A DNA stretch of 64,000 nucleotides from the NCBI GenBank assembly GCA_013697245.1, contig JACCXH010000062.1:62001-126000 (forward strand), written 5' to 3'. Positions within the stretch are counted from its first letter, which is position 1; every line of letters begins with the position of its first letter. The translations under genes and the position numbers were made by a program. Shown here piece after piece: positions 12,471-35,012 of this stretch. The stretch comes from Bacteroidota bacterium. Lineage in GTDB: Bacteria > Bacteroidota > Bacteroidia > B-17B0 > Aurantibacillaceae. The notes under the pieces are model-generated. The model did no database searches. It saw only the letters and a program-made list of their open reading frames with translations, and had not been told where the DNA came from.

Positions 12471-14852
12471 TTATTTTCCGAAAAACTTCTTCCACTTTGA
12501 TTTTGGCTTTTCTTTTCCATAACCATAGCCACCGTAGCCGTACCCATAACCATAACCATAGCCATAGCCTTTCTTTTGATCAGTTCCGTTCATTAATATG
12601 GCCATATTTGGTAATTTATTTTCTTTATGAGCATTCTCAGGCACATACAAGAATTGTTTTTGTAAATAGTGTGCTCGAACAACATATACGAATGAGTCGG
12701 CAAATTTGCCAAGTAATAACGTATCTGTTACCAATCCTACAGGAGCCGTATCAACAATAATATAATCATATATTTCTTTCACTTTTCCAAACATCTCTTT
12801 TACCCTATCATGCATTAATAGTTCGGCCGGATTTGGTGGAATAGCACCAGAAGGTAAAAGATCTAAATTCTCTATTTTTGGGGCATTGAAAATAATTTGA
12901 TTTAGCGGAATATCGGCATCTGAAATATAGTTGCTAAGACCCACCTTATCTGTTAAGCCAAGATATTTTAAGATCTTCGGGGCCCGAAGATCCATGCCAA
13001 TTAACAGGACTTTTTTTCCTGAATTGGCAATAATCGATGCTAAGTTCAAAGCAACGAAAGATTTTCCCTCTTTAGCTAAAGTGGATGTTACAAAAATAGT
13101 GCGCCCTTTGGCTTTATTTGTATCCATAATAAAATCAACATTAGTACGAAGCAAACGAAAAGCCTCTGCTATACTTGATTGATCCCCCCTGTTTACAACA
13201 ATCTTATTTTCTGACTCTACGTATGGAATATCGCCTAAGAACGGAACGCCGATCTTATCAATATCGCGCTTACCATGTACTTTATTATCCAACACATCCA
13301 TGATATAAAAAACGATGACAGGAATTATAAGACCAAGTAATAAAGAAGCTAAATAAATGATGCGCTTGTTTGGCGATACAGGAATTCCATTACAATATGC
13401 ATTGTCGATTACCTTTGCGTTTGCAACTGTTACAGCCAAAGCAATATTGGTTTCTTCTCTTTTTTGCAAAAGATAAAGGTATAATGTTTCCTTAATTTGT
13501 TGTTGACGTTGAATGACACGGTACTCGCGTTCGTATTTTGGTACAGTTGCTATTTTAGAATTAATGCCACTTTCCTGCTTGTTTAATTCTTTTAGTTTTA
13601 TTTGAAGAGAGTTCTTATAGTTTAATAAACTTTCTTTTAAACTATTTCTCAAACCAAGCAATTGAGTATTTAAGTTTTCGATAACGGGGTTTTTTTCGCT
13701 TGAGTATTTTAAAATTCTGTTTCTCTCAATAACTGCAATATTATGACTGGCTATCATGGTTCCAACTGCCGGATCATTTAACCCCAGATTAGCTGGGATA
13801 AGATCGCTTGGAGAGGTATGCTGCAGAATATAATCATACATATACTCAGCTAATTTTACCTGCGTATTTGTTTGTAAAAGTTCAATTTCATTATCGCTTC
13901 CTGTTTTTAAAAACAAACCAGCTTCAGACTCTACATCAATTAATTTATGGTAAGTTTTAAAACTTTCTGCTTCTTCTTCAACGGTTGAAAGTTCGGAGGT
14001 GATAAATTTTATACGATCATTTATAAAATTAGCAGTGTTTTTGGATACCTGATTTTTATCCGCAACGGCATCTGCATTATGTTGCTTGATAAGATTATTA
14101 ACGATAGCTTCGGCCTTAACTTTTAAAGGATCTTTTAATGTAATTTCAATAACATTAGATGTTTTATTTACAGGCACCACAACTATTGCGCCTCTATATT
14201 CATCTACAACTGAAGCTAAAGGCGAAACTACAATCCTAATATCTTTGCCAATAAATTCTTTAAATTCAATTGGGTTAGGATAGATAGCTATTTTTCCGAG
14301 AGCGGTTTCGATTGGTTCACCAAAGGATCTTGATATACTTGATTCGCCCTTATTATTCAAGATCTTAAAACGAGTTTTTGACTCTAAATTGATTGTAATT
14401 TCCTGACTCAAGTATTGAATGGAAGTATCTCCGTGAACAAACTGAACAGTAATTGGTGAGTTATCAAATTTTTCAACATCAAAAGGGCTTTTTTTAATAA
14501 AATACTGAAGGTTTAATCGTAATTCTTTAACCACCAAGGTCATCAGATCACGTGATTTTAATATCTCTATTTCATTATCAATGTTATTAACGCCTTTAAA
14601 TAAACCAAGATCTTCAAAAGCGGATAGCTCAGATATGGCACCACCTTTTTTATCGTCTTTAATTAAGATGGAGGCGCTTACTTCATACAAAGGTATTTGG
14701 TAACGCAAATATATTTTAGCTATAAAGAAAGAAATGATAAGGGCAAGTACAAACCATTTCCAATAAGATAAATAGCGGTAAACAATATTTATTATATTGT
14801 TTTCTGCTTCTGAGGAATCTTCATGAGAATATTTTGTTTGGTCGTTTTCCAT
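12471..14852 (-). CDS. Wzc-like polysaccharide co-polymerase and tyrosine autokinase
   Basis: 793 residues. A Wzz chain-length domain with its first membrane helix near residues 32-52 (WKWFVLALIISFFIAKIYL) opens the protein. A long periplasmic coiled-coil part follows with a tyrosine-kinase-type G-rich region (KYEREYRVIQRQQQIKETLY near 450-470), then a second helix near 494-516. The cytoplasmic BY-kinase has Walker A AKEGKSFVALNLA near 588-600, Walker A' VLLIGMDLRAPK and Walker B YDYIIVDTAP near 690. The tail is an 18-residue Gly-Tyr repeat, the expected autophosphorylation cluster. It controls polymer length and export together with the Wza-like lipoprotein encoded 2 bases upstream. Confidence 0.93.
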   Translation of the reverse strand: MENDQTKYSHEDSSEAENNIINIVYRYLSYWKWFVLALIISFFIAKIYLRYQIPLYEVSASILIKDDKKGGAISELSAFEDLGLFKGVNNIDNEIEILKSRDLMTLVVKELRLNLQYFIKKSPFDVEKFDNSPITVQFVHGDTSIQYLSQEITINLESKTRFKILNNKGESSISRSFGEPIETALGKIAIYPNPIEFKEFIGKDIRIVVSPLASVVDEYRGAIVVVPVNKTSNVIEITLKDPLKVKAEAIVNNLIKQHNADAVADKNQVSKNTANFINDRIKFITSELSTVEEEAESFKTYHKLIDVESEAGLFLKTGSDNEIELLQTNTQVKLAEYMYDYILQHTSPSDLIPANLGLNDPAVGTMIASHNIAVIERNRILKYSSEKNPVIENLNTQLLGLRNSLKESLLNYKNSLQIKLKELNKQESGINSKIATVPKYEREYRVIQRQQQIKETLYLYLLQKREETNIALAVTVANAKVIDNAYCNGIPVSPNKRIIYLASLLLGLIIPVIVFYIMDVLDNKVHGKRDIDKIGVPFLGDIPYVESENKIVVNRGDQSSIAEAFRLLRTNVDFIMDTNKAKGRTIFVTSTLAKEGKSFVALNLASIIANSGKKVLLIGMDLRAPKILKYLGLTDKVGLSNYISDADIPLNQIIFNAPKIENLDLLPSGAIPPNPAELLMHDRVKEMFGKVKEIYDYIIVDTAPVGLVTDTLLLGKFADSFVYVVRAHYLQKQFLYVPENAHKENKLPNMAILMNGTDQKKGYGYGYGYGYGYGGYGYGKEKPKSKWKKFFGK
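12516..12569 (-). repeat. Hexanucleotide-type repeat encoding the Tyr-Gly tail of the kinase
   Basis: 54 bases encode 18 residues of almost pure Gly-Tyr alternation, using near-identical GGY-TAY units (GGCTAT, GGTTAT, GGGTAC). Such short in-frame repeats can gain or lose units by slippage, which would change the number of phosphorylatable tyrosines without breaking the frame. Confidence 0.8.
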
Positions 14853-14854
14853 TT

Positions 14855-15649
14855 TTATTTCCTGCTTAACAATGTTATCATGGTAATCAATAAAGAAAGT
14901 ACCGATATAGCGATACCAACATTTGAAGCATTTATAACGGAAGAATTTATTTTAGCCCTGTTCGGTTCTACATACACAACATCGTTTTGATGTAAATAAT
15001 ATACAGGTGAACTAAACAGGTTTTTAGAGGTTAGGTCAACACGTGTTTCGGTTTTTTTTCCGTCAACATCTCTAATTACCAAAACATTCTTACGCACAGC
15101 CGTGATCAATAGATCGCCAGAAATTCCAAGCGCTTCAGGTAACGAAATACGTTCATTTGGTATGGTAAAGGTGCCAGGGTTTCTTACTTCACCCAAAACG
15201 GTTATTTTATAATTAAGGATCCGGATCATTACATTTGGATTATTGATATAGGCCCCTAATTTTTCTTTCAAAAGAGTTGCAGCCGATACCCTATCTAATC
15301 CCCCAACTTTTATTTTTCCAATAACCGGAAAATCGATATTTCCTTCCGAATCTACTAAATAGCCCGGAGGTGTTGGAGCGCCCTGTGAATAGCCGCCAAC
15401 AATTTGCCCACCGGTTTGGCTTGGTAAATTAAATGGCTTTACCGCATCAGGGTCAAGCCCCATAACAGTTATAGACAATAGATCATCGGCATGCAGAATT
15501 GGGGTATAGTTTTTATTTGAATCGGAATTGGATACGGCTTCCTTACCTTGGAAATAGACTAATTTTTTTTTAGAGGTGCAAGAAGGGAAAAATGCTGTTA
15601 AAATAAATAATATTAAAAATCCGAAATTCCTGAAAAAACGAATAAACAT
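14855..15649 (-). CDS. Wza-like polysaccharide export outer-membrane lipoprotein
   Basis: 264 residues from the ATG at 15649, chosen because it begins the lipoprotein signal (MFIRFFRNFGFLILFILTAF, then FPSC with the lipid-modified cysteine); an 18-residue longer form is open but unlikely. A Poly_export domain follows (LHADDLLSITVMGLDPDAVK; GYLVDSEGNIDFPVIGKIKV; LKEKLGAYINNPNVMIRI), then a SLBB domain (ITVLGEVRNPGTFTIPNERI) and a C-terminal hydrophobic segment (VGIAISVLSLLITMITLLS). It forms the outer-membrane exit pore for the polymer. It lies 2 bases upstream of the kinase gene. Confidence 0.93.
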   Translation of the reverse strand: MFIRFFRNFGFLILFILTAFFPSCTSKKKLVYFQGKEAVSNSDSNKNYTPILHADDLLSITVMGLDPDAVKPFNLPSQTGGQIVGGYSQGAPTPPGYLVDSEGNIDFPVIGKIKVGGLDRVSAATLLKEKLGAYINNPNVMIRILNYKITVLGEVRNPGTFTIPNERISLPEALGISGDLLITAVRKNVLVIRDVDGKKTETRVDLTSKNLFSSPVYYLHQNDVVYVEPNRAKINSSVINASNVGIAISVLSLLITMITLLSRK

Positions 15650-15715
15650 GCTTTTAGATATAAAACTGGTTTTAATTTGGATATAAAAGTAACCTTTTTC
15701 CACGATATAAGCGCT

Positions 15716-16747
15716 TTAAGCGCTCCGAATTTTATTGGTAAAGATGTTATATAGAGCCATAAAAAAGAATTTTATTTTAGTTGTGAAAGGGTTTTTCTCT
15801 AAACTTTCCAGGTAAATTCTCTCTGCTTCAATATTTCCAAGGTCATCGGGCATGTTTAAAGAAACATAAGGAGGGATACAGCCCGGTTTGATTTTTTTTC
15901 GCTTTTCTTGCAATTCATTAGGAAATTCATTGAAACGTGTCTCACTAATCGGTCTTACACCAATTATTGACATTTCGCCCTTAAAAACGTTTATTAATTG
16001 TGGTAATTCATCTAACCAATATTTTCGTAAAAATTTACCCCATGGTGTTAAACGAAAATCATCGGCCGGTTTACCTTTTTCGTTATACCCATTATTTTTT
16101 AGAACATATGATTGTAAGTATTCAGCATAAGGATGCATTGTTCTGAATTTATATACACCGATTATTTTACCATTTTTGCCTATACGCGGCATTTTATATA
16201 ATGGACCATAACTCGCATTCATATTAAATTCCGGCGCTTTAATCTTTTTTGTGATCACATAAAGCAAACCATTGAAACTATAATACCCATCAATTTCAAA
16301 GCCGCAGCTTACCAGCCGCCCTAAAACTTCTGCTTTTGATAATACCCGGTTACGGCCTCTTGTGAGAAGAAAATAGATCTTTTTTAAACCTGCCACTTTT
16401 GGAAAAACCCTCATGAAAATAAATTCTACCCCAAAATAAATGTTCCTTAGGATGGGGATCTTACCAATTGATTTTCTCTCTTTTCTGGCAGAAAAAGTTT
16501 CAAGACAACAAATGAACCTACCGTTTTTCTTTAATTTAAAATTAACACTTTCAAAGAATTTATTTAAATAACGAATATCATTAACACGGCTTAGATTAAC
16601 AACTACTTTTATTTCACCAATATGATTTAAAATATTAAAATCGTTTGTGGTTGAAACCACGAGGGTCTCAGGTGATTCCATTTCAGCAAACGAAGAAAAA
16701 TATTCATATACTTCTAATGAAGTTTTTTGAATAATAAGGTCTTTCAT
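15716..16747 (-). CDS. Sugar transferase with an N-terminal methyltransferase-like domain
   Basis: 343 residues. From about residue 182 on it is a bacterial sugar-transferase (PglC/WcaJ-type) catalytic domain: RIGKNGKIIGVYKFRTM, the Asp-Glu dyad in YWLDELPQLINVFKGEMS near 243-260, and IIGVRPISETRF. Such enzymes put the first sugar phosphate onto undecaprenyl phosphate. Unusually, the hydrophobic re-entrant membrane segment that normally precedes this domain is missing. In its place is a 180-residue region with the second half of a SAM-methyltransferase fold (KVVVNLSRVNDIRYLNKFFE, FKLKKNGRFICCLETF) but no glycine-rich SAM-binding loop. It is the only candidate initiating enzyme in the operon. 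Confidence 0.85.
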   Translation of the reverse strand: MKDLIIQKTSLEVYEYFSSFAEMESPETLVVSTTNDFNILNHIGEIKVVVNLSRVNDIRYLNKFFESVNFKLKKNGRFICCLETFSARKERKSIGKIPILRNIYFGVEFIFMRVFPKVAGLKKIYFLLTRGRNRVLSKAEVLGRLVSCGFEIDGYYSFNGLLYVITKKIKAPEFNMNASYGPLYKMPRIGKNGKIIGVYKFRTMHPYAEYLQSYVLKNNGYNEKGKPADDFRLTPWGKFLRKYWLDELPQLINVFKGEMSIIGVRPISETRFNEFPNELQEKRKKIKPGCIPPYVSLNMPDDLGNIEAERIYLESLEKNPFTTKIKFFFMALYNIFTNKIRSA

Positions 16748-16775: not shown

Positions 16776-17507
16776 TTATTTTTTAAAAATCTCTTTTATT
16801 AATGCGTAAACGAAATATGAATTACAGATCATATATCTTTTTGCTAATCGTCGCGGATCCTGCAGGGTTCTTACCAACCATCTTAAACCAAGTTTTTTTG
16901 TAAACGAATCCAGTTTAACTTCTCCAACAAAATATTCGTAACTTCCACCAACCCCCATTAGCACTTTAGCATTTAATAAGTGTTTATTTTGAATAATAAA
17001 TTCTTCCTTACGTGGTGAGCCAAAGGCCACAAAAAGTATATCCGGTTTAAAATTTGAGATCTTTTCAATTACTTTTTTTTCTTCGCGGACAATATCATAA
17101 TAACCATTCTGAAAATCCACATTTTTAGAAAGGCCCGGGAAATCATTTTCGATTTTGCTTTTTACTTTATCAAGCAAACTTTGCGAGGACCCTAAAAAGA
17201 ACAATCTATGTCCTAAACTATTTGCTTTTTTAATTAGCTCAACCATTAATTCGGCTCCTGAAATTGCTTCTATCTTATTTTTATGGACTAATCTCTCGGC
17301 AAAAACAATTGATTGTCCATCCGGAATAACATGCGTGCCGGAAGTATAAAGAGCTTTTAATTTTTCATCTTTTGCGCCTTGATGAAGCTTTAAAGTGTTT
17401 AAAGAAATAATAGTTGTTAATTGATCTGACTTAATTCTTTGTTCGATCTCACTAAGTAGTTCTTGCTTGGTTTTATTGTAAACTTTGTATCCAAAAAGTT
17501 GGCTCAT
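16776..17507 (-). CDS. WecG/TagA/CpsF family glycosyltransferase
   Basis: 243 residues, usual family length. Characteristic motifs are TIISLNTLKLHQGAKDEKLK, VIPDGQSIVFAERLV (the acceptor-site aspartate), a LFFLGSSQSLLDKVKSKIE Rossmann-like strand-helix, and PDILFVAFGSPRKEEFI followed by VGGSYEYFVGEVK. The family transfers N-acetylmannosamine or a related sugar to an undecaprenyl-linked acceptor, usually as the second step of repeat-unit assembly. It sits directly upstream of the sugar transferase gene, consistent with consecutive early steps. Donor sugar not deducible. Confidence 0.9.
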   Translation of the reverse strand: MSQLFGYKVYNKTKQELLSEIEQRIKSDQLTTIISLNTLKLHQGAKDEKLKALYTSGTHVIPDGQSIVFAERLVHKNKIEAISGAELMVELIKKANSLGHRLFFLGSSQSLLDKVKSKIENDFPGLSKNVDFQNGYYDIVREEKKVIEKISNFKPDILFVAFGSPRKEEFIIQNKHLLNAKVLMGVGGSYEYFVGEVKLDSFTKKLGLRWLVRTLQDPRRLAKRYMICNSYFVYALIKEIFKK

Positions 17508-20814: not shown

Positions 20815-22707
20815 TTAGTTGAAAAATGTTTTAAACCAAATTTCGTTTACCATTAATCGCCAAATAAGTTGTGAATTATCTTCAAGTCCTTTTTGATTAT
20901 TATTTATTAGTTTTTGCACATAATCGGGATTAAAAATCCCTCTTGCTTTAACTGTTTCATATGACAAAATATCATTAACCATTTCTTTTAATTCATTCTT
21001 TAACCAACCACGCATTGGGGCACTAAAAGGGGCTTTAGGTCGATAAATAATTTCATGAGGGATATATTTTTCTGAAACTTTTTTTAATAAATATTTTTGA
21101 ATGTTGCCTTTGATCCTCAACTCCGGCTTTACTTTAAACATTAGCTCCACGATACGATGATCGATTAAGGTTGGCCTACCCTCAACCCCCGCCGCCATCA
21201 TAGATTTATCTGAATACGTCAAATTATGATCAGGCATATAAATTTTAGAATCGCAAAAACACATTTTTGTTAAATAAGATCCGGGAGCATTATCGAACAT
21301 TTTTTTTTGAAGTTGATAATAATAACTGTCCTTGTATGATCCTGCATTTACAAAATATTGATTGAATGTTTCGTTGCGCAAACCAGTATTCATGACAGCA
21401 ATATGCCTTTCAAACTTATTTAAAGATGCTACTGTTGAAAATCTTTTTACCCAACGAATGTATTTGTAGTTACGTTTGGAATTACTTTCCGGAAATTGCG
21501 AGATAATAACATGATTCAGGGCGCGAGCAAATTTTGGCACAAATTTTTGATAGGTCTCAGCTTTTAAGCACGCAAGGTGCGCGCGATAACCGCCAAACAC
21601 TTCATCGGCACCCATGCCAGTTAATAATACACTAATACCTTTTTCTTTAGCAGACTTTGCAATTAAATAAGTATTAATTGCAGATGGATCGGCAATTGGT
21701 TCATCCAAATGATAGATCATTTTTGGCAAAAGCTCTGTAATATTTGGTTTTATGAGCAACTCGTGGTGTTTGAAACCATATTTATTTGCCATTATTTTTG
21801 CAAAATATGAATCGTCAACATTGCCTTGAAGTTTAAGGTCTTTCTTCTCGAATTTGATCGTGAACGAGTTTAATGGTTCGCTCATTTGTTTTTGCATAAG
21901 CGCCGCAAGAATAGAAGAATCAAGGCCGCCACTTAGCATAACACCAACAGGAATATCAGAAACAAGATTTAATTTAACTGCATCATTAATCAAGTGATCT
22001 AACTCCTCGGTTGCTGTTTTTTCATCAGATAGGTCCTCTGAAATAACAATATCCCAATACTTTTGCATTGTAATGTTATTTTCTTTATCAAATTTTATAA
22101 AGTGCCCTGCAGGCAACTTATAAATATTTTTAAAACCTGTATAGGGTGTGATTTGAAAATGAACCGGTGTTTGTAATGCAGGCAGATCAGGTTCCCGTAA
22201 ATATTCTTTTAATTTTAAAATAGCTTTTATTTCTGATGAAAAAGCCAAGGCACTGTTTTGATGAAGATAATACAATGGTTTAATGCCCAGCCTGTCTCTG
22301 GCAATGAAGGTTTCTTTTTTTTCAGGATTATAAATACAAAAAGCAAACATCCCATTAAATTTATTTAAGCAATCTTCTTTCCATTTATGAAAGGCATTTA
22401 AAACAACTTCTGTATCAGATCCTGTAGAAAAACCGTATCCGCTTTTTTCTAATTCTGCTTTTATCTCTTTATAATTATAGATCTCGCCATTAAAAATGAT
22501 CCAATTACCGCTATTTTTATCGAACATTGGCTGGCTACCATTTGGAGACAGATCAATAATAGATAACCTTGCGTGACCCAGCCCGCTATTGTTTCCATCA
22601 AACCATTGAATATCGTCGCTATCTGGCCCACGATGTTTAATTGCTTTAACAGCTTCACTCAACTCGTGTTTACTTCCGCAATTTATGAATCCAACTATAC
22701 CGCACAT
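20815..22707 (-). CDS. asnB: Asparagine-synthase-type glutamine amidotransferase (copy 1)
   Basis: 630 residues. The N-terminal class II glutaminase starts MCGIVGF with the catalytic Cys2 and has GLGHARLSIIDLSPNGSQPM, FNGEIYNYKEIKAELE and GSDTEVVL. The synthetase domain has the pyrophosphate loop MLSGGLDSSILAALM near residue 257 and LLTGMGADEVFGGY near 350. Both active sites look complete, so it can use glutamine to amidate an ATP-activated carboxylate. True asparagine synthase and polysaccharide amidases share this architecture; its place in a polysaccharide operon with two more copies favours amidation of a uronic acid or amino-acid substituent. The gene 15 bases upstream is a methyltransferase. 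Confidence 0.9.
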   Translation of the reverse strand: MCGIVGFINCGSKHELSEAVKAIKHRGPDSDDIQWFDGNNSGLGHARLSIIDLSPNGSQPMFDKNSGNWIIFNGEIYNYKEIKAELEKSGYGFSTGSDTEVVLNAFHKWKEDCLNKFNGMFAFCIYNPEKKETFIARDRLGIKPLYYLHQNSALAFSSEIKAILKLKEYLREPDLPALQTPVHFQITPYTGFKNIYKLPAGHFIKFDKENNITMQKYWDIVISEDLSDEKTATEELDHLINDAVKLNLVSDIPVGVMLSGGLDSSILAALMQKQMSEPLNSFTIKFEKKDLKLQGNVDDSYFAKIMANKYGFKHHELLIKPNITELLPKMIYHLDEPIADPSAINTYLIAKSAKEKGISVLLTGMGADEVFGGYRAHLACLKAETYQKFVPKFARALNHVIISQFPESNSKRNYKYIRWVKRFSTVASLNKFERHIAVMNTGLRNETFNQYFVNAGSYKDSYYYQLQKKMFDNAPGSYLTKMCFCDSKIYMPDHNLTYSDKSMMAAGVEGRPTLIDHRIVELMFKVKPELRIKGNIQKYLLKKVSEKYIPHEIIYRPKAPFSAPMRGWLKNELKEMVNDILSYETVKARGIFNPDYVQKLINNNQKGLEDNSQLIWRLMVNEIWFKTFFN

Positions 22708-24730: not shown

Positions 24731-26587
24731 TTATTTTAGGGTCTCATTTAAAACCAAAAGACTCCATAACAAATTTCCATTATCGTTTTTACCCTCAGCG
24801 TTATCGTTTATAAGTTTTTGAATTGTATTAATATTAAAAACCGATCCTGATCCGGTAAAATTCAATAAGTGATCTTGAATCACTTTGTTCTTGAACCATT
24901 CCCGTACTGGAACCCGGAACCCTTTTTTAGAGGCTTTCAATAATTCTGCCGGTAATTTTTTGGCGACTGTATTTCTTAAAACACTTTTACGTTGCCAACC
25001 CTGCATTTTTACATTTTTATCTACACCTACCATAAACTCAATCAAGCGGTGATCTAAAAAAGGCACACGTGTTTCAAGGGAATATGCCATACTCATTCTG
25101 TCAACCTTTACCAACATATCTTCAGGCAGATCATATTTAAAATTTAAATACATCTGTTTATAAAAATCATCTTTATAAGGGCACTTATTCATTACATCAT
25201 TAAAATAATCTTCCACCTTCCAGGTTTTGATTTTAGGATCGATTAGTGATTTTAAAATAGACCTGCCGGGTTTAGATTGTTTTTCCAATAACCTTTGATT
25301 AAAACCTTTTGATGAGGTTAACAATAGGTGATTGATCCTGTTTAATTTATATCTGTATTTTCCTGAAAGAGCTTTTGAAGAAATATTTGCTGCTTCAGGT
25401 AAAAATTTTTGTATAGATAAGGGGAGACTTTGATATTTTTGCGCAAATTTTATTCCCTGGTAAGATGTATAACCTGACAGAACTTCATCACCCCCATCGC
25501 CAGTTAAGACCATTTTTACTTTTTGGGCTGCAAATTTTGATACATAGCCGGTTGGAATTGCAGATGAGTCTCCAAATGGTTCATCATAATGATTTACTAC
25601 AGTATTTAATGCCTCTGTAAAATTATCCGAGTTTACGGTTCCTAAATGGTGGTTGGTATTAAATTTTTTTGCGACCAGTTCTGCCAACTTACTTTCATCA
25701 AATTCATTTTCCTTGTAACCAATAGTAAATGTATTGATGGGAAATTTTGAGTTGCCGGACATTAAAGCAACGATTGAAGCAGAATCTAATCCCCCGCTTA
25801 AAAATGCGCCGAATGGTACATCGCAACGCATGCGTATCTTTATTGAATCCTCAAAAAGCTCAGTGAATCTTTCATGTACCTGATTTGCATTTTTAAACAT
25901 ATTGTCTTCCTCAATCAAAGGAAGATCCCAATATTTATACTCTTTAAATCCATTATTGTTAGCAATTATATAATGGCCGGGCATTAATTTTTTAATATGT
26001 TTATAGAACGAAAAAGGTGATGGAATATATTTAAAAACACTATATATTTCAAGAAATTCTAATTGTGGTTCTTTTGGAATTCCATATGCCAATAATGATT
26101 TTATTTCGGAACCAAAGATCAACGAATTATCCCATGCTGCATAATGTAGTGGCTTTTCACCAATCCTATCTCGTGATAAAAATAATTGTTGCTTTCTTTC
26201 GTCCCAAATGGCAAATGCCCACATACCATTAAATTTATTCTGACAATCAATTCCCCATTCTTCATAAGCTTTTAAAACAACTTCTGTATCTGAAGTTGTT
26301 TTAAATTTATGCCCTTTCTCAATTAATTCTTTTCTGAGCTCTATATAATTATATATCTCACCATTAAGTACAATTACTATATTTTTGTCGTGGCTGTACA
26401 TTGGCTGGTTGCCTGTTGAAAGATCAATGATGGATAGTCTTCTATGTCCTAGCCCTATGTTTTTATTAAAATAAAAACCATCGCCATCCGGTCCGCGGTA
26501 ATTAATAATTTCCGTGATCTTTTTTAATTTAAGATCATCAACTGTTCGTTGTTTATCAAAGTGCAATATCCCGGTTATTCCGCACAT
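24731..26587 (-). CDS. asnB: Asparagine-synthase-type glutamine amidotransferase (copy 2)
   Basis: 618 residues from the ATG at 26587. This start is required because the catalytic cysteine must be residue 2 (MCGITGILHF); the frame stays open 11 codons further upstream but into the preceding gene. Motifs: GLGHRRLSIIDLSTGNQPMY, LNGEIYNYIELRKELIEKG, the pyrophosphate loop FLSGGLDSASIVALM, and LTGDGGDEVLSGYTSYQG. The C-terminal part has the usual KVDRMSMAYSLETRVPFLDH. Both active sites look intact. It is 1 base downstream of a hexapeptide acyltransferase gene and 3 bases upstream of a glycosyltransferase gene, the same order as around copy 3. Confidence 0.9.
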   Translation of the reverse strand: MCGITGILHFDKQRTVDDLKLKKITEIINYRGPDGDGFYFNKNIGLGHRRLSIIDLSTGNQPMYSHDKNIVIVLNGEIYNYIELRKELIEKGHKFKTTSDTEVVLKAYEEWGIDCQNKFNGMWAFAIWDERKQQLFLSRDRIGEKPLHYAAWDNSLIFGSEIKSLLAYGIPKEPQLEFLEIYSVFKYIPSPFSFYKHIKKLMPGHYIIANNNGFKEYKYWDLPLIEEDNMFKNANQVHERFTELFEDSIKIRMRCDVPFGAFLSGGLDSASIVALMSGNSKFPINTFTIGYKENEFDESKLAELVAKKFNTNHHLGTVNSDNFTEALNTVVNHYDEPFGDSSAIPTGYVSKFAAQKVKMVLTGDGGDEVLSGYTSYQGIKFAQKYQSLPLSIQKFLPEAANISSKALSGKYRYKLNRINHLLLTSSKGFNQRLLEKQSKPGRSILKSLIDPKIKTWKVEDYFNDVMNKCPYKDDFYKQMYLNFKYDLPEDMLVKVDRMSMAYSLETRVPFLDHRLIEFMVGVDKNVKMQGWQRKSVLRNTVAKKLPAELLKASKKGFRVPVREWFKNKVIQDHLLNFTGSGSVFNINTIQKLINDNAEGKNDNGNLLWSLLVLNETLK

Positions 26588-26588
26588 T

Positions 26589-27185
26589 TTATTTTGTAGC
26601 TGAAGAGTTAAAGAGTTCAACCACCCTTTTTTTTGAATAATTAGACCTTACTTCTTTTAAATGGGTTTCCAAGTCATCTTCATTAAATCTTAATTTAACT
26701 GCTTTACACGGATTACCGATACATACTGAGTATGGAGGAAGTGATCTTGTTACAACTGACCCTGCGCCTATTACACTGCCCTCTCCAATAGTAATACCTT
26801 TTAAAATTGTAACATTTGTTCCTACCCAAACATCATCTTCAATTATGATTGGAATATTCTTTCCACCGGTTTTCACAAAACGCATTGGTTGACCAACAAC
26901 AGAAATATTATGATCGCCACCCATTATTGTTACTTGAGGACCAAACATAACATTGTTTCCGATCTTAACTGATACATTAGTATTTATGACGGTGCGCTGC
27001 CCCATAAAAACATTATCGCCCACTTCAATTAAACGGTGATCAATAAACTCAGAGTTAAAGCCAAATTTAAAATTTTTTCCAACTTTTTTTAAAGATCTTT
27101 TTATGATAAGCCATTTTAAGAACCATAACATATTTGGAATAGATCTGGTAATATAGCTTAACTTATTTGGCGATAGCTGTATCAT
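26589..27185 (-). CDS. Hexapeptide-repeat acyltransferase (left-handed beta-helix)
   Basis: 198 residues. From about residue 50 the chain consists of hexapeptide turns (VGDNVFMGQRTVINTNVSVK, IGNNVMFGPQVTIMGGDHNI, IEDDVWVGTNVTILKGITIG, EGSVIGAGSVVTRSLPPYSV) that form the trimeric left-handed beta-helix of the WcaF/maltose O-acetyltransferase group. The histidine in MGGDHN is at the position of the catalytic base. It probably O-acetylates a sugar of the repeat unit using acetyl-CoA. Its 5' end overlaps the upstream glycosyltransferase gene by 23 bases. Confidence 0.9.
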   Translation of the reverse strand: MIQLSPNKLSYITRSIPNMLWFLKWLIIKRSLKKVGKNFKFGFNSEFIDHRLIEVGDNVFMGQRTVINTNVSVKIGNNVMFGPQVTIMGGDHNISVVGQPMRFVKTGGKNIPIIIEDDVWVGTNVTILKGITIGEGSVIGAGSVVTRSLPPYSVCIGNPCKAVKLRFNEDDLETHLKEVRSNYSKKRVVELFNSSATK

Positions 27186-33182: not shown

Positions 33183-35012
33183 TTAATTTAATTTCACTTT
33201 AAATATTTTTAGCCAAATATTAAACGAATATATCCGGAAGATAACTGAATTATACGGTTTCTTTTCTTGAACGAATTCATCAAAATATTCAAGGATTGAA
33301 TTATTAAATATTCCCTTGGTATCTTTAATTGCCTCCACCAAGTTATTCCTAACAGAACTATGATTTTTTCGAATAAATATTTCGTCCGGTGTGGCAAACC
33401 CGATCTTATTATGCCTGTTCAATATTTCTTCGGGCAAAATATCCTTTAATCCGCTCCGCAAAACAGCTTTAGTAATTCCATTTTTTAATTTATAAGAATC
33501 CGGAAGTGAGAAGATGAATTCCGTTAAATTAAAATCCAAAAATGGAAGGCGGCTTTCAATAGAACTCATCATCGAGTTTCTATCTTCTGAATGCAGTTGG
33601 TAAGGGATACTTGTTTCGTTAATTTGTAGTAAAGATTCGTGATAAACGCTTTTTGTATTTTTTTGAGCTTTGTAATTTCTGTCTTTAAAAAGATCGCTAA
33701 AATACAATTTGTGTTTATCTTTATTTCGTTGATTGGTTATAGAATACAAAAATGCTTTTGCGGAAATAAACAGAAAAGATCTTTTTTGATTCTTAGAGAA
33801 TTGATATATTTCTTTTATAGCAAATAAAAATTTGCCTTTTCGTATCAAACTTAAAAAAAACTTATAAAAAAAACTCATGTACCCTGCCATAAACTCATCG
33901 GCCCCTTGCCCATCCAACATAACTTTTATTTTGTGCTCATTTGCTTTGCTGAAAAGTGCGAATTCTGCAAAGTGAGAACCGCTTAAAATTGGTTGGTCCT
34001 GGTGATAAACTAATTTATTAAATATTTTCTGATCTATCAGTTCGCTCATTTCCGGGTAGATTTTCACAGATTCAAACCCACTTTTTTTTGCAACAACATC
34101 AATAAATTTTTCCTCATTGATTTGTTTTTCACTAAAACAAACTGAAAATGTTTTTAACTCATTTCCATTCATTTGTTTTACCTCGCATACTATTGAAGAA
34201 CTGTCTAAACCGCCTGATAGGCATGCTCCTACTTCAACATCTGAACGCAACCTGATCTTGACAGCATTCTTAAAGATCTCACTGAATTGTTTGGATGCCT
34301 GTGAAAAAGTAATAGATCTGTTTTTCTTTATTTTTTCGATATTATAATATTGCTTTACATAACAGTTGTGATTATTTAAATTATAATTTAAATTATAACC
34401 TGGCAATAAAACTCGCACACCTTCAAATAAAGTATCTTCATTTGTATTTAAATGCGAGTTAACTAAATAATTATAAGCTTCTTTATAATTTAAATTTGGT
34501 TCAAATTCTTTTATTGCGGTAAATTGTTTTATTTCGGAAGCGATCAAGAATTTGGATGGTAAAGCGATATAATTAAATGGTTTTATTCCAAATCGATCCC
34601 GGCTGCAAAATAAACTATTTTTTTTAATATCAAATAAAATAAAAGCCCACATGCCATTAAATTTCAATACGCAATCATCACCCCATTTATCATATGCTGC
34701 CAATATAACTTCTGTATCTGAAGATGAACTAAATGAATAACCAAATTGTTTCAGTTCCTCTTTTATTTCGAGGTAATTAAATATTTCGCCATTATAAACA
34801 AGCACATATTTGTCATGATATATCATCGGTTGCGCACCGCTTATTGTTAGATCTATAATAGAAAGACGCCTGTGGCCCAAAGCAAAATTTAAACCTTCGT
34901 AAAAACCTTCCTGATCGGGGCCTCGATGAAATACTATGTCATTCATCGCTTTTATCTCATCGCGAGGAACTTTATTATTATTTGTATTAATTATGGCAGA
35001 AATACCGCACAT
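33183..35012 (-). CDS. asnB: Asparagine-synthase-type glutamine amidotransferase (copy 3)
   Basis: 609 residues. MCGISAIINTN provides Cys2. ALGHRRLSIIDLTISGAQPM, YNGEIFNYLEIKEELKQFG and SSDTEVILAAYDKWG complete the glutaminase. The synthetase half has the pyrophosphate loop CLSGGLDSSSIVCEVKQ and MLDGQGADEFMAGYMSFF, with a conservative S-to-D change before GQGADE relative to the other copies. It diverges clearly from copies 1 and 2, so this is not a recent duplication. The gene upstream (57 bases away) is a hexapeptide acyltransferase and the one downstream (4 bases) a glycosyltransferase, repeating the order around copy 2. Confidence 0.9.
   Translation of the reverse strand: MCGISAIINTNNNKVPRDEIKAMNDIVFHRGPDQEGFYEGLNFALGHRRLSIIDLTISGAQPMIYHDKYVLVYNGEIFNYLEIKEELKQFGYSFSSSSDTEVILAAYDKWGDDCVLKFNGMWAFILFDIKKNSLFCSRDRFGIKPFNYIALPSKFLIASEIKQFTAIKEFEPNLNYKEAYNYLVNSHLNTNEDTLFEGVRVLLPGYNLNYNLNNHNCYVKQYYNIEKIKKNRSITFSQASKQFSEIFKNAVKIRLRSDVEVGACLSGGLDSSSIVCEVKQMNGNELKTFSVCFSEKQINEEKFIDVVAKKSGFESVKIYPEMSELIDQKIFNKLVYHQDQPILSGSHFAEFALFSKANEHKIKVMLDGQGADEFMAGYMSFFYKFFLSLIRKGKFLFAIKEIYQFSKNQKRSFLFISAKAFLYSITNQRNKDKHKLYFSDLFKDRNYKAQKNTKSVYHESLLQINETSIPYQLHSEDRNSMMSSIESRLPFLDFNLTEFIFSLPDSYKLKNGITKAVLRSGLKDILPEEILNRHNKIGFATPDEIFIRKNHSSVRNNLVEAIKDTKGIFNNSILEYFDEFVQEKKPYNSVIFRIYSFNIWLKIFKVKLN

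Follow-up and report, generated by a model that had tools for sequence, protein, structure and literature searches.

Monotopic phosphoglycosyl transferases (PGTs) are described as sharing a minimal catalytic domain that in all superfamily members includes a reentrant membrane helix (RMH; PMC10519829). In PglC, the RMH depends on Lys-Arg and Ser-Pro determinants; the P24A variant is inactive, and Pro24 reportedly contributes to polyprenol binding (PMC6133551). A DX12P motif of the RMH, the PglC active-site residues K59, R88, D93-E94, and R111, and a conserved Asp close to the C terminus, D168, said to stabilize the RMH, are given in PMC12802240, and Arg88 has been tied to UndP binding or contact (PMC10519829). 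In WbaP, the accessory domain PF13727 comes before the RMH, and the monotopic core itself is described as containing that helix (PMC10942596). In titles, abstract openings, and selected passages of the open PMC literature, we encountered no PF02397 protein that carries a methyltransferase-like domain or lacks an RMH.

Here we describe a gene of a Bacteroidota bacterium whose product matches the PGT catalytic domain, lacks the RMH, and carries a predicted methyltransferase-like domain in its place. It lies on the minus strand of a 64,000-nucleotide stretch of DNA analyzed as a whole (the window; Table 1), with its ATG at 16747 and its stop codon ending at 15716, exactly where an earlier note on this DNA had placed it.

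Table 1. Coordinates of the gene, its domains and motifs, and its neighbors in the window
Feature	Residues	Position in window	Strand	Evidence
RMH-less phosphoglycosyl transferase, whole gene, 343 aa		15716..16747	-	ORF; PF02397; AlphaFold2 model
Predicted class I methyltransferase-like domain, degenerate, motif I absent	1-172	16232..16747	-	VIA, hhalign, motif count
Helix-break-helix, candidate membrane-docking element	98-129	16361..16456	-	Model, conservation, interfacial propensity
SKAEVLGRL..GF signature (E140, R144, G149, F150)	137-150	16298..16339	-	Four residues in 36/36
PGT catalytic domain without reentrant membrane helix	179-343	15719..16213	-	VIA superposition
KFRTM motif (K200, R202)	200-204	16136..16150	-	K200 and R202 kept in 36/36
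D246-E247 catalytic dyad		16007..16012	-	36/36; aligned with WbaP LDELPQ
GVRP; GPRP in ordinary PGTs	263-266	15950..15961	-	Family and ordinary motif counts
C-terminal tripeptide RSA, family signature [RS]-S-x-COOH		15719..15727	-	End-residue counts
WecG/TagA/CpsF-type glycosyltransferase, plausible second-step enzyme		16776..17507	-	PF03808, E 1.2e-42
Wzc-like (12471-14852) and Wza-like (14855-15703) export genes		12471..15703	-	Names by reading the sequence

The gene sits within a polysaccharide locus. Beyond the neighbors in Table 1, the locus extends to ~40 kb with ORFs that read as glycosyltransferase-, asparagine-synthase-, acetyltransferase-, flippase-, and polymerase-like; three genes of the asparagine-synthase-like type (20815-22707, 24731-26620, and 33183-35012, again named by reading) fall in the same locus. 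Wzc/Wza-like matches also occur beside several relatives of the gene. Pfam scanning of the relatives' neighbors (86 of 161 listed) indicates that these are capsule and exopolysaccharide genes: among 25 of the 75 families listed, the commonest are DUF354 (8), Wzi (6), Epimerase_2 (5), and GFO/IDH/MocA (4), followed by GT1/GT4 families, Wzy_C (3), and YjbH (3).

No other PF02397 gene was found in the window, and its contig holds no MraY/WecA-type (PF00953) gene. The earlier note had called the gene the only candidate for chain initiation, which is correct for the locus and not for the genome, where contig C53 holds two ordinary PGTs (C53:76074, 473 aa; C53:212116, 216 aa). These are the second, normal transferases whose existence that note had considered; window proteins and inspection by eye revealed no evident polysaccharide cluster beside either one (flanks of 18 and 12 kb for one and 19 kb for the other), so neither evidently serves this operon. 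The 216-aa PGT comes after a 416-aa ORF that looks DegT aminotransferase-like by eye. At least one ordinary PGT is present in 24 of the 25 family-bearing genomes, the exception being G119, which has no complete one but a 49-aa piece where a contig ends. In the relatives' genomes (24), the distance from the family gene to an ordinary PGT is at most 10 kb in G188 and 10-30 kb (within ~28 kb) in G143 and G108; in the other 21 the ordinary PGT is farther away or on another contig, a count limited by contig ends.

The catalytic half of the protein is readily assigned. Its only Pfam match up to E 1 is PF02397 (Bac_transf), covering residues 181-292 at profile positions 34-134 of 179 (E 9.2e-29); since the match starts at profile position 34, the RMH part (positions 1-33) is absent. 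All 36 aligned family members match PF02397, and family matches in the survey of 25 genomes begin at profile positions 31-39. Ten NCBIfam families match as well, all of sugar transferases and all below their own cut-offs; one of them, PRK15204, aligned to residues 34-280 with 62 bits against a cut-off of 907 and was rejected as an assignment, the large-PGT profile comparison given below disagreeing with it. With VIA-align, residues 177-339 of the predicted model superpose on WbaP 8t53 (308-471; Z 13.6, rmsd 2.9, 122 residues), and the same catalytic part superposes on PglC 8e37 (38-183; Z 12.7, rmsd 3.2, 140 residues). Both superpositions begin past the RMH of the known enzyme, and Foldseek puts the same groups on top.

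To locate any RMH in front of this core, we scored the 57 residues ahead of the KxR[ST]M motif (residues 135-191 in the window protein) by their best 19-residue Kyte-Doolittle mean. The 37 family members ranged from -0.06 to 1.43, with 0/37 at or above 1.6, whereas intact ordinary PGTs ranged from 1.92 to 3.15, with 63/63 at or above 1.6. The ordinary set comprises 64 rows; the 64th, a family copy truncated at a contig end, is left out of the 63; ordinary-PGT counts differ between analyses (62 in the tree, 64 rows, 61 for the C terminus) through length, duplicate, and locus filters. The absence of a hydrophobic reentrant helix ahead of the catalytic part, first noted for the window protein, is thus borne out across the family, and residues 135-191 contain no hydrophobic helix that could serve in mid-protein. 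An amphipathic helix suspected at residues 150-185 was not seen: the model shows a strand hairpin and a polar linker there, and the candidate element lies earlier, at residues 98-129. As a plain pattern, DX12P discriminated poorly, occurring within the same stretch in 41/64 ordinary-group rows (one of them the cut family copy) and 6/37 family members; D/E108 and P116 in the family's own helix pair are 8 apart. Because the helix stated for all superfamily members is missing, we do not call the window protein a standard monotopic PGT, although it still matches PF02397.

Catalytic residues were retained throughout. The sugar-transferase motifs claimed by the earlier note are all there, in the form KFRTM, LDELP, and GVRP, and K200, R202, R241, D246, E247, and R265 are invariant in 36/36 aligned members. 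By motif and spacing, together with the WbaP alignment, we map K200, R241, D246-E247, and R265 putatively onto PglC K59, R88, D93-E94, and R111. This invariance favors an active enzyme, and the window protein is, judging from its sequence, probably a functional phosphoglycosyl transferase; we know of no established activity for any family member.

Other features of the catalytic half set the family apart. GPRP is found in 61/63 intact ordinary PGTs and in 0/37 family members, all 37 of which carry G[VIAL]RP; a PG-ITG-type motif is found in 36/63 intact ordinary PGTs and in 0/37 family members. With both motifs missing across the family, the substrate or acceptor may have changed. At the C terminus, Ser occupies position -2 in 36/36 family members vs. 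1/61 ordinary PGTs, Arg occupies position -3 in 34/36, and the chain ends 142-144 aa past the RTM motif in 34/36 (for the other two, the pattern chose another site or none). Such constraint suggests that the C terminus belongs to the working site. The alignment column that we match to PglC D168 holds K324 in the window protein and Asp in 32/36 members; the RMH-stabilizing Asp would accordingly have no counterpart in the window protein.

The N-terminal domain resembles a methyltransferase in predicted structure. AlphaFold2, given a 14-row alignment of window and related-locus proteins, returned five models with mean pLDDT from 82.7 to 66.9 (pTM 0.76 for the best). Predicted residues 7-171 superpose on the methyltransferase 3cc8 (Z 11.9, rmsd 3.4, 127 residues), and residues 7-169 on the methyltransferase 3d2l (Z 11.9, rmsd 2.8, 128 residues). 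In a model of the relative L030 (mean pLDDT 71.5), residues 176-341 likewise superpose on methyltransferases, with Z up to 13.1 and rmsd 4.4-4.8; WbaP aligned with this L030 model over 61-507 at an rmsd of 18.7, from which nothing is concluded on the transmembrane (TM) bundle. At the level of these models, the N domain has a methyltransferase-like fold.

Sequence profiles support the same assignment more faintly. Compared by hhalign with a methyltransferase profile from its own genome (21 rows, 17 distinct genes), the N-domain profile gave a probability of 47.7, vs. at most 0.28 for 20 column shuffles and at most 0.5 for 13 other profiles, a control set of uneven depth (0 to 30 further rows each, two being single sequences). 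One of these controls, a single FkbM-type ORF named by reading and presumably itself a methyltransferase, scored 0.1. Motif I, the SAM loop, occurs in 0/39 family ORF entries (38 genes), and the alignments of the N domain, both with the methyltransferase profile and in the genome scan with the N-domain profile, begin after motif I; the domain therefore appears to correspond to approximately strands 3-7 of a methyltransferase, and normal SAM binding is not expected. Pfam gave the window N domain no match of its own up to E 1, and single family members reached methyltransferase families at E 0.014-0.24, where unrelated families score alike, so that Pfam alone does not establish the likeness. The N-domain profile found 0 matches among PDB sequences up to E 10, and its sole nonfamily match in the genome scan was a methyltransferase with intact motif I (L178 in G125). 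We regard the sequence tie to methyltransferases as weak but real. Fold prediction, hhalign, and the motif I count agree with the earlier reading, in which the first 180 residues resemble the latter half of a class I methyltransferase that has no SAM-binding glycine loop. The domain has invariant E140 and R144, yet no recognized catalytic motif. Derivation from the large-PGT accessory domain was considered and rejected: hhalign gave 93.6 while the target set still held family members and 1.4 once 6 family ORFs were removed, leaving 33 ordinary rows plus the own one.

The two-part architecture recurs across the phylum. Its frequency, which the earlier note had left to be counted, is 25/395 genomes (own included) and 23/171 genera when the first 176 residues serve as query; in the quality subset (at least 90% complete, at most 5% contaminated), 25/371 genomes match. 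This recurrence rules out a truncated ordinary PGT or a sequencing artifact. An N-domain profile of 35 rows matched 26/395 genomes, the extra genome being G125 with its real methyltransferase; the only other new match was L180, a divergent second member in G148. Whole-protein scanning of contigs contributed 13 family members (L030-L042, L040 being cut by a contig end) among the 80 of 203 loci kept, all from Bacteroidota (Bacteroidales, Flavobacteriales, Crocinitomicaceae, Draconibacterium, Prevotella, and unclassified Bacteroidia). In the 25-genome survey, all N-terminal matches adjoin PF02397 except the second G180 copy, cut by a contig end, and a methyltransferase-like domain standing alone was not found in matches across the 395 genomes. 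Such constant pairing, the cut copy aside, indicates that the domain functions within the enzyme. In a tree built from 166 columns of the catalytic part, with RMH columns left out, a long branch with 100% SH-aLRT support separates 37 family from 62 ordinary sequences. The architecture is a clade-wide trait, not chance.

Several individual loci depart from the common plan. G180 carries two tandem family copies (L119:3405-5572), the second being the cut one, and the divergent L180 member (985-2280) has RTL in place of RTM, while its N-terminal stretch looks by eye like an O-methyltransferase winged helix. In L031:5584-7020, the RMH-less PGT is fused at its N terminus to a response-regulator receiver domain (PF00072, E 8.8e-21); in the EpsW-EpsZ pair, a PGT is controlled by a separate receiver protein (PMC12802240). 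N-terminal extensions of ~125 aa occur in L005:997-2394, with a weak HTH_Tnp_1 match (E 3.1e-4, below cut-off), and in L006:1114-2499, for which no DNA-binding family matched. A different set of proteins, of ~650-720 aa, matches only the end of PF02397 (from ~93-97; from 119 in G062) in 15/25 genomes, and in 14 of these 15 an ordinary large PGT is no more than 4 kb away. Judged by eye, one of these proteins, L181:2524-4512 in G124, combines a GT2 domain with TM helices, a segment that looks reentrant, and a PGT tail from which the DE dyad is missing, and so looks like a mirror image of the RMH-less PGT.

How an RMH-less protein might contact the membrane is suggested by a helix pair within the methyltransferase-like domain. 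The model predicts helices at 98-117 and 121-129, with the family consensus YxxDFxxxRVxPKLxxxKKIYFxxT and near-invariant R113 (34/36), P116 (35/36), K117 (34/36), and Y125 (35/36). A kinked, proline-containing pair rich in aromatic and basic residues is what an interfacial element would be expected to look like; the Lys-Arg and Ser-Pro determinants of the PglC RMH are comparable in character but form a different motif. The best 32-residue interfacial energy in the N domain has a median of -5.8 kcal/mol (35 members), compared with -6.5 for ordinary RMH stretches and -3.6 for methyltransferases (21 rows, 17 genes); the difference from methyltransferases is not significant (p = 0.09), and the stretches searched differ in length. 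Methyltransferases often carry such caps. Over 98-129 the window member itself scores -2.8 kcal/mol, rank 20/26 among members without N-terminal TM segments (mean -4.5).

Predicted TM segments vary across the family. None in the window protein (row L004) reaches the TM threshold, and in L034 and L039, otherwise without TM-like segments, the first helix of the pair passes it. N-terminal TM segments, 4 to 8 in number, are predicted for 10 of 36 aligned members: L030 and L033 have four, the other eight members have five to eight, and one of the eight in L021, at ORF residue 373, sits inside the methyltransferase-like domain. The Prevotella members L041 and L042 have lost ~44 first residues and keep the helix pair. 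The idea that TM-less members compensate with a more hydrophobic hairpin was rejected, the trend being opposite (10 TM-bearing vs. 26 TM-less members, p = 0.036); as the hairpin of TM-bearing members is if anything more interfacial, the pair does not simply replace TM anchors. These features are at most suggestive of a membrane dock at 98-129.

We propose that the window protein is an active RMH-less PGT that starts the operon's sugar chain on a membrane lipid phosphate and docks through residues 98-129, a reading to which we give about an even chance of being right. Its clade, observed here in Bacteroidota, belongs to the monotopic PGT superfamily and would have lost the N-terminal RMH, acquiring in its place approximately strands 3-7, the latter half, of a class I methyltransferase fold, with no normal SAM binding. 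An insertion between strands 5 and 6, the Phe/Tyr/Lys/Arg-rich helix-proline-helix of residues 98-129, would lie on or dip into the inner leaflet and hold the active site at the lipid headgroups, a docking role comparable to that of the RMH in PglC and WbaP. The chemistry is assumed to be unchanged: Asp246 would take the sugar phosphate from a UDP-sugar, and the lipid phosphate would then take it over.

Two other readings of an active enzyme deserve weight. The protein may transfer its phosphosugar to some other acceptor—a lipid of another kind, the hydroxyl of a sugar within a lipid-linked chain, or something soluble—while an ordinary PGT on C53 starts the chain. Loss of the RMH, GPRP, and the PG-ITG-type motif in 37/37 members fits this, as do the new C-terminal signature, the role ascribed to Pro24 of the PglC RMH in polyprenol binding (PMC6133551), the two ordinary PGTs in the genome, and the ordinary PGTs near the family gene in G188 (at most 10 kb) and in G143 and G108 (within ~28 kb). 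We nevertheless consider it unlikely: the donor-binding and covalent phosphosugar-step residues are invariant; R241, equated by spacing with PglC R88, a reported UndP contact (PMC10519829), is kept in 36/36; 21/24 relatives' genomes have no ordinary PGT within 30 kb on the same contig, as far as contig ends allow; and TM anchors are predicted in 10/36 members. For the same last reason, of the two options left by the earlier note, a new way of meeting the lipid fits better than a soluble acceptor, which has no positive support.

It is also improbable, to a similar degree, that the protein initiates chains as an ordinary PGT and owes its place at the membrane mainly to partners (such as Wzc) or to an amphipathic C-terminal helix at 320-338, with the methyltransferase-like domain as a structural or regulatory scaffold in which 98-129 is buried. 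That would leave unexplained both the near-invariance of R113, P116, K117, and Y125 and the occurrence of the methyltransferase-like domain only with a PGT domain. Its attractions are the Wzc-/Wza-like genes adjoining the window gene and several relatives, the receiver domain of L031, which suggests a regulatory role for N-terminal additions, and the family-mean 18-residue amphipathic moment, which ranks second from residue 319 (0.47) after a first place from 55-59 (0.52). An inactive relic is very improbable: the protein does lack a feature that published work counts within every member's minimal catalytic domain (PMC10519829), but the 37 members, though diverged, group in a single clade whose catalytic residues do not vary.

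Returning to the docked, RMH-less initiator, a broader version of this proposal, which we think unlikely, is that the clade has recruited a dead methyltransferase's lipid-facing cap to dock reversibly and peripherally on the membrane, and that the acceptor may have changed as well. With a receiver or possibly a DNA-binding-like domain in some members, initiation might then be switched by recruiting a soluble enzyme. We know of no PGT that lacks a membrane segment. If members prove soluble or peripheral, they should be easier to purify and crystallize than known PGTs. The RMH is published as present in all superfamily members and as linked to polyprenol binding (PMC10519829, PMC6133551). With at least 37 sequences that retain the checked catalytic residues but not the helix, this clade is a natural deletion experiment, and can show whether the helix serves chemistry, lipid recognition, or only anchoring.

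Among described systems, PglC of Campylobacter (a small monotopic PGT; 8e37, 8g1n) shares with the window protein the catalytic fold, the DE dyad, and the basic substrate residues; the window protein differs in lacking the RMH, in having GVRP rather than GPRP, in the 172-residue methyltransferase-like domain in front, and in a C-terminal RSx. WbaP of Salmonella (a large monotopic PGT; 8t53) is alike in its catalytic domain and in having an alpha/beta domain N-terminal to the core, and L030 and L033 are WbaP-like in their four TM-like segments. The features of large PGTs, four TM helices and a PF13727 domain ahead of the core, are otherwise absent: the window protein has no TM-like segment and no PF13727 match up to E 1, L030 and L033 show no PF13727 match despite their TM-like segments, and the domain here is methyltransferase-like, with a profile-comparison probability of only 1.4 against large-PGT N-terminal parts. 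Bi-PGTs (a class in PMC10942596) also have an extra domain fused to a monotopic PGT core, but in the window protein the RMH is absent and the fused domain has no known catalytic motif. Class I methyltransferases (3cc8, 3d2l, and UbiG 4kdr) resemble residues 3-171 in predicted fold, down to the terminal strand hairpin, and differ in possessing motif I and the first strands, which are missing here, with no PDB sequence match to bridge the two.
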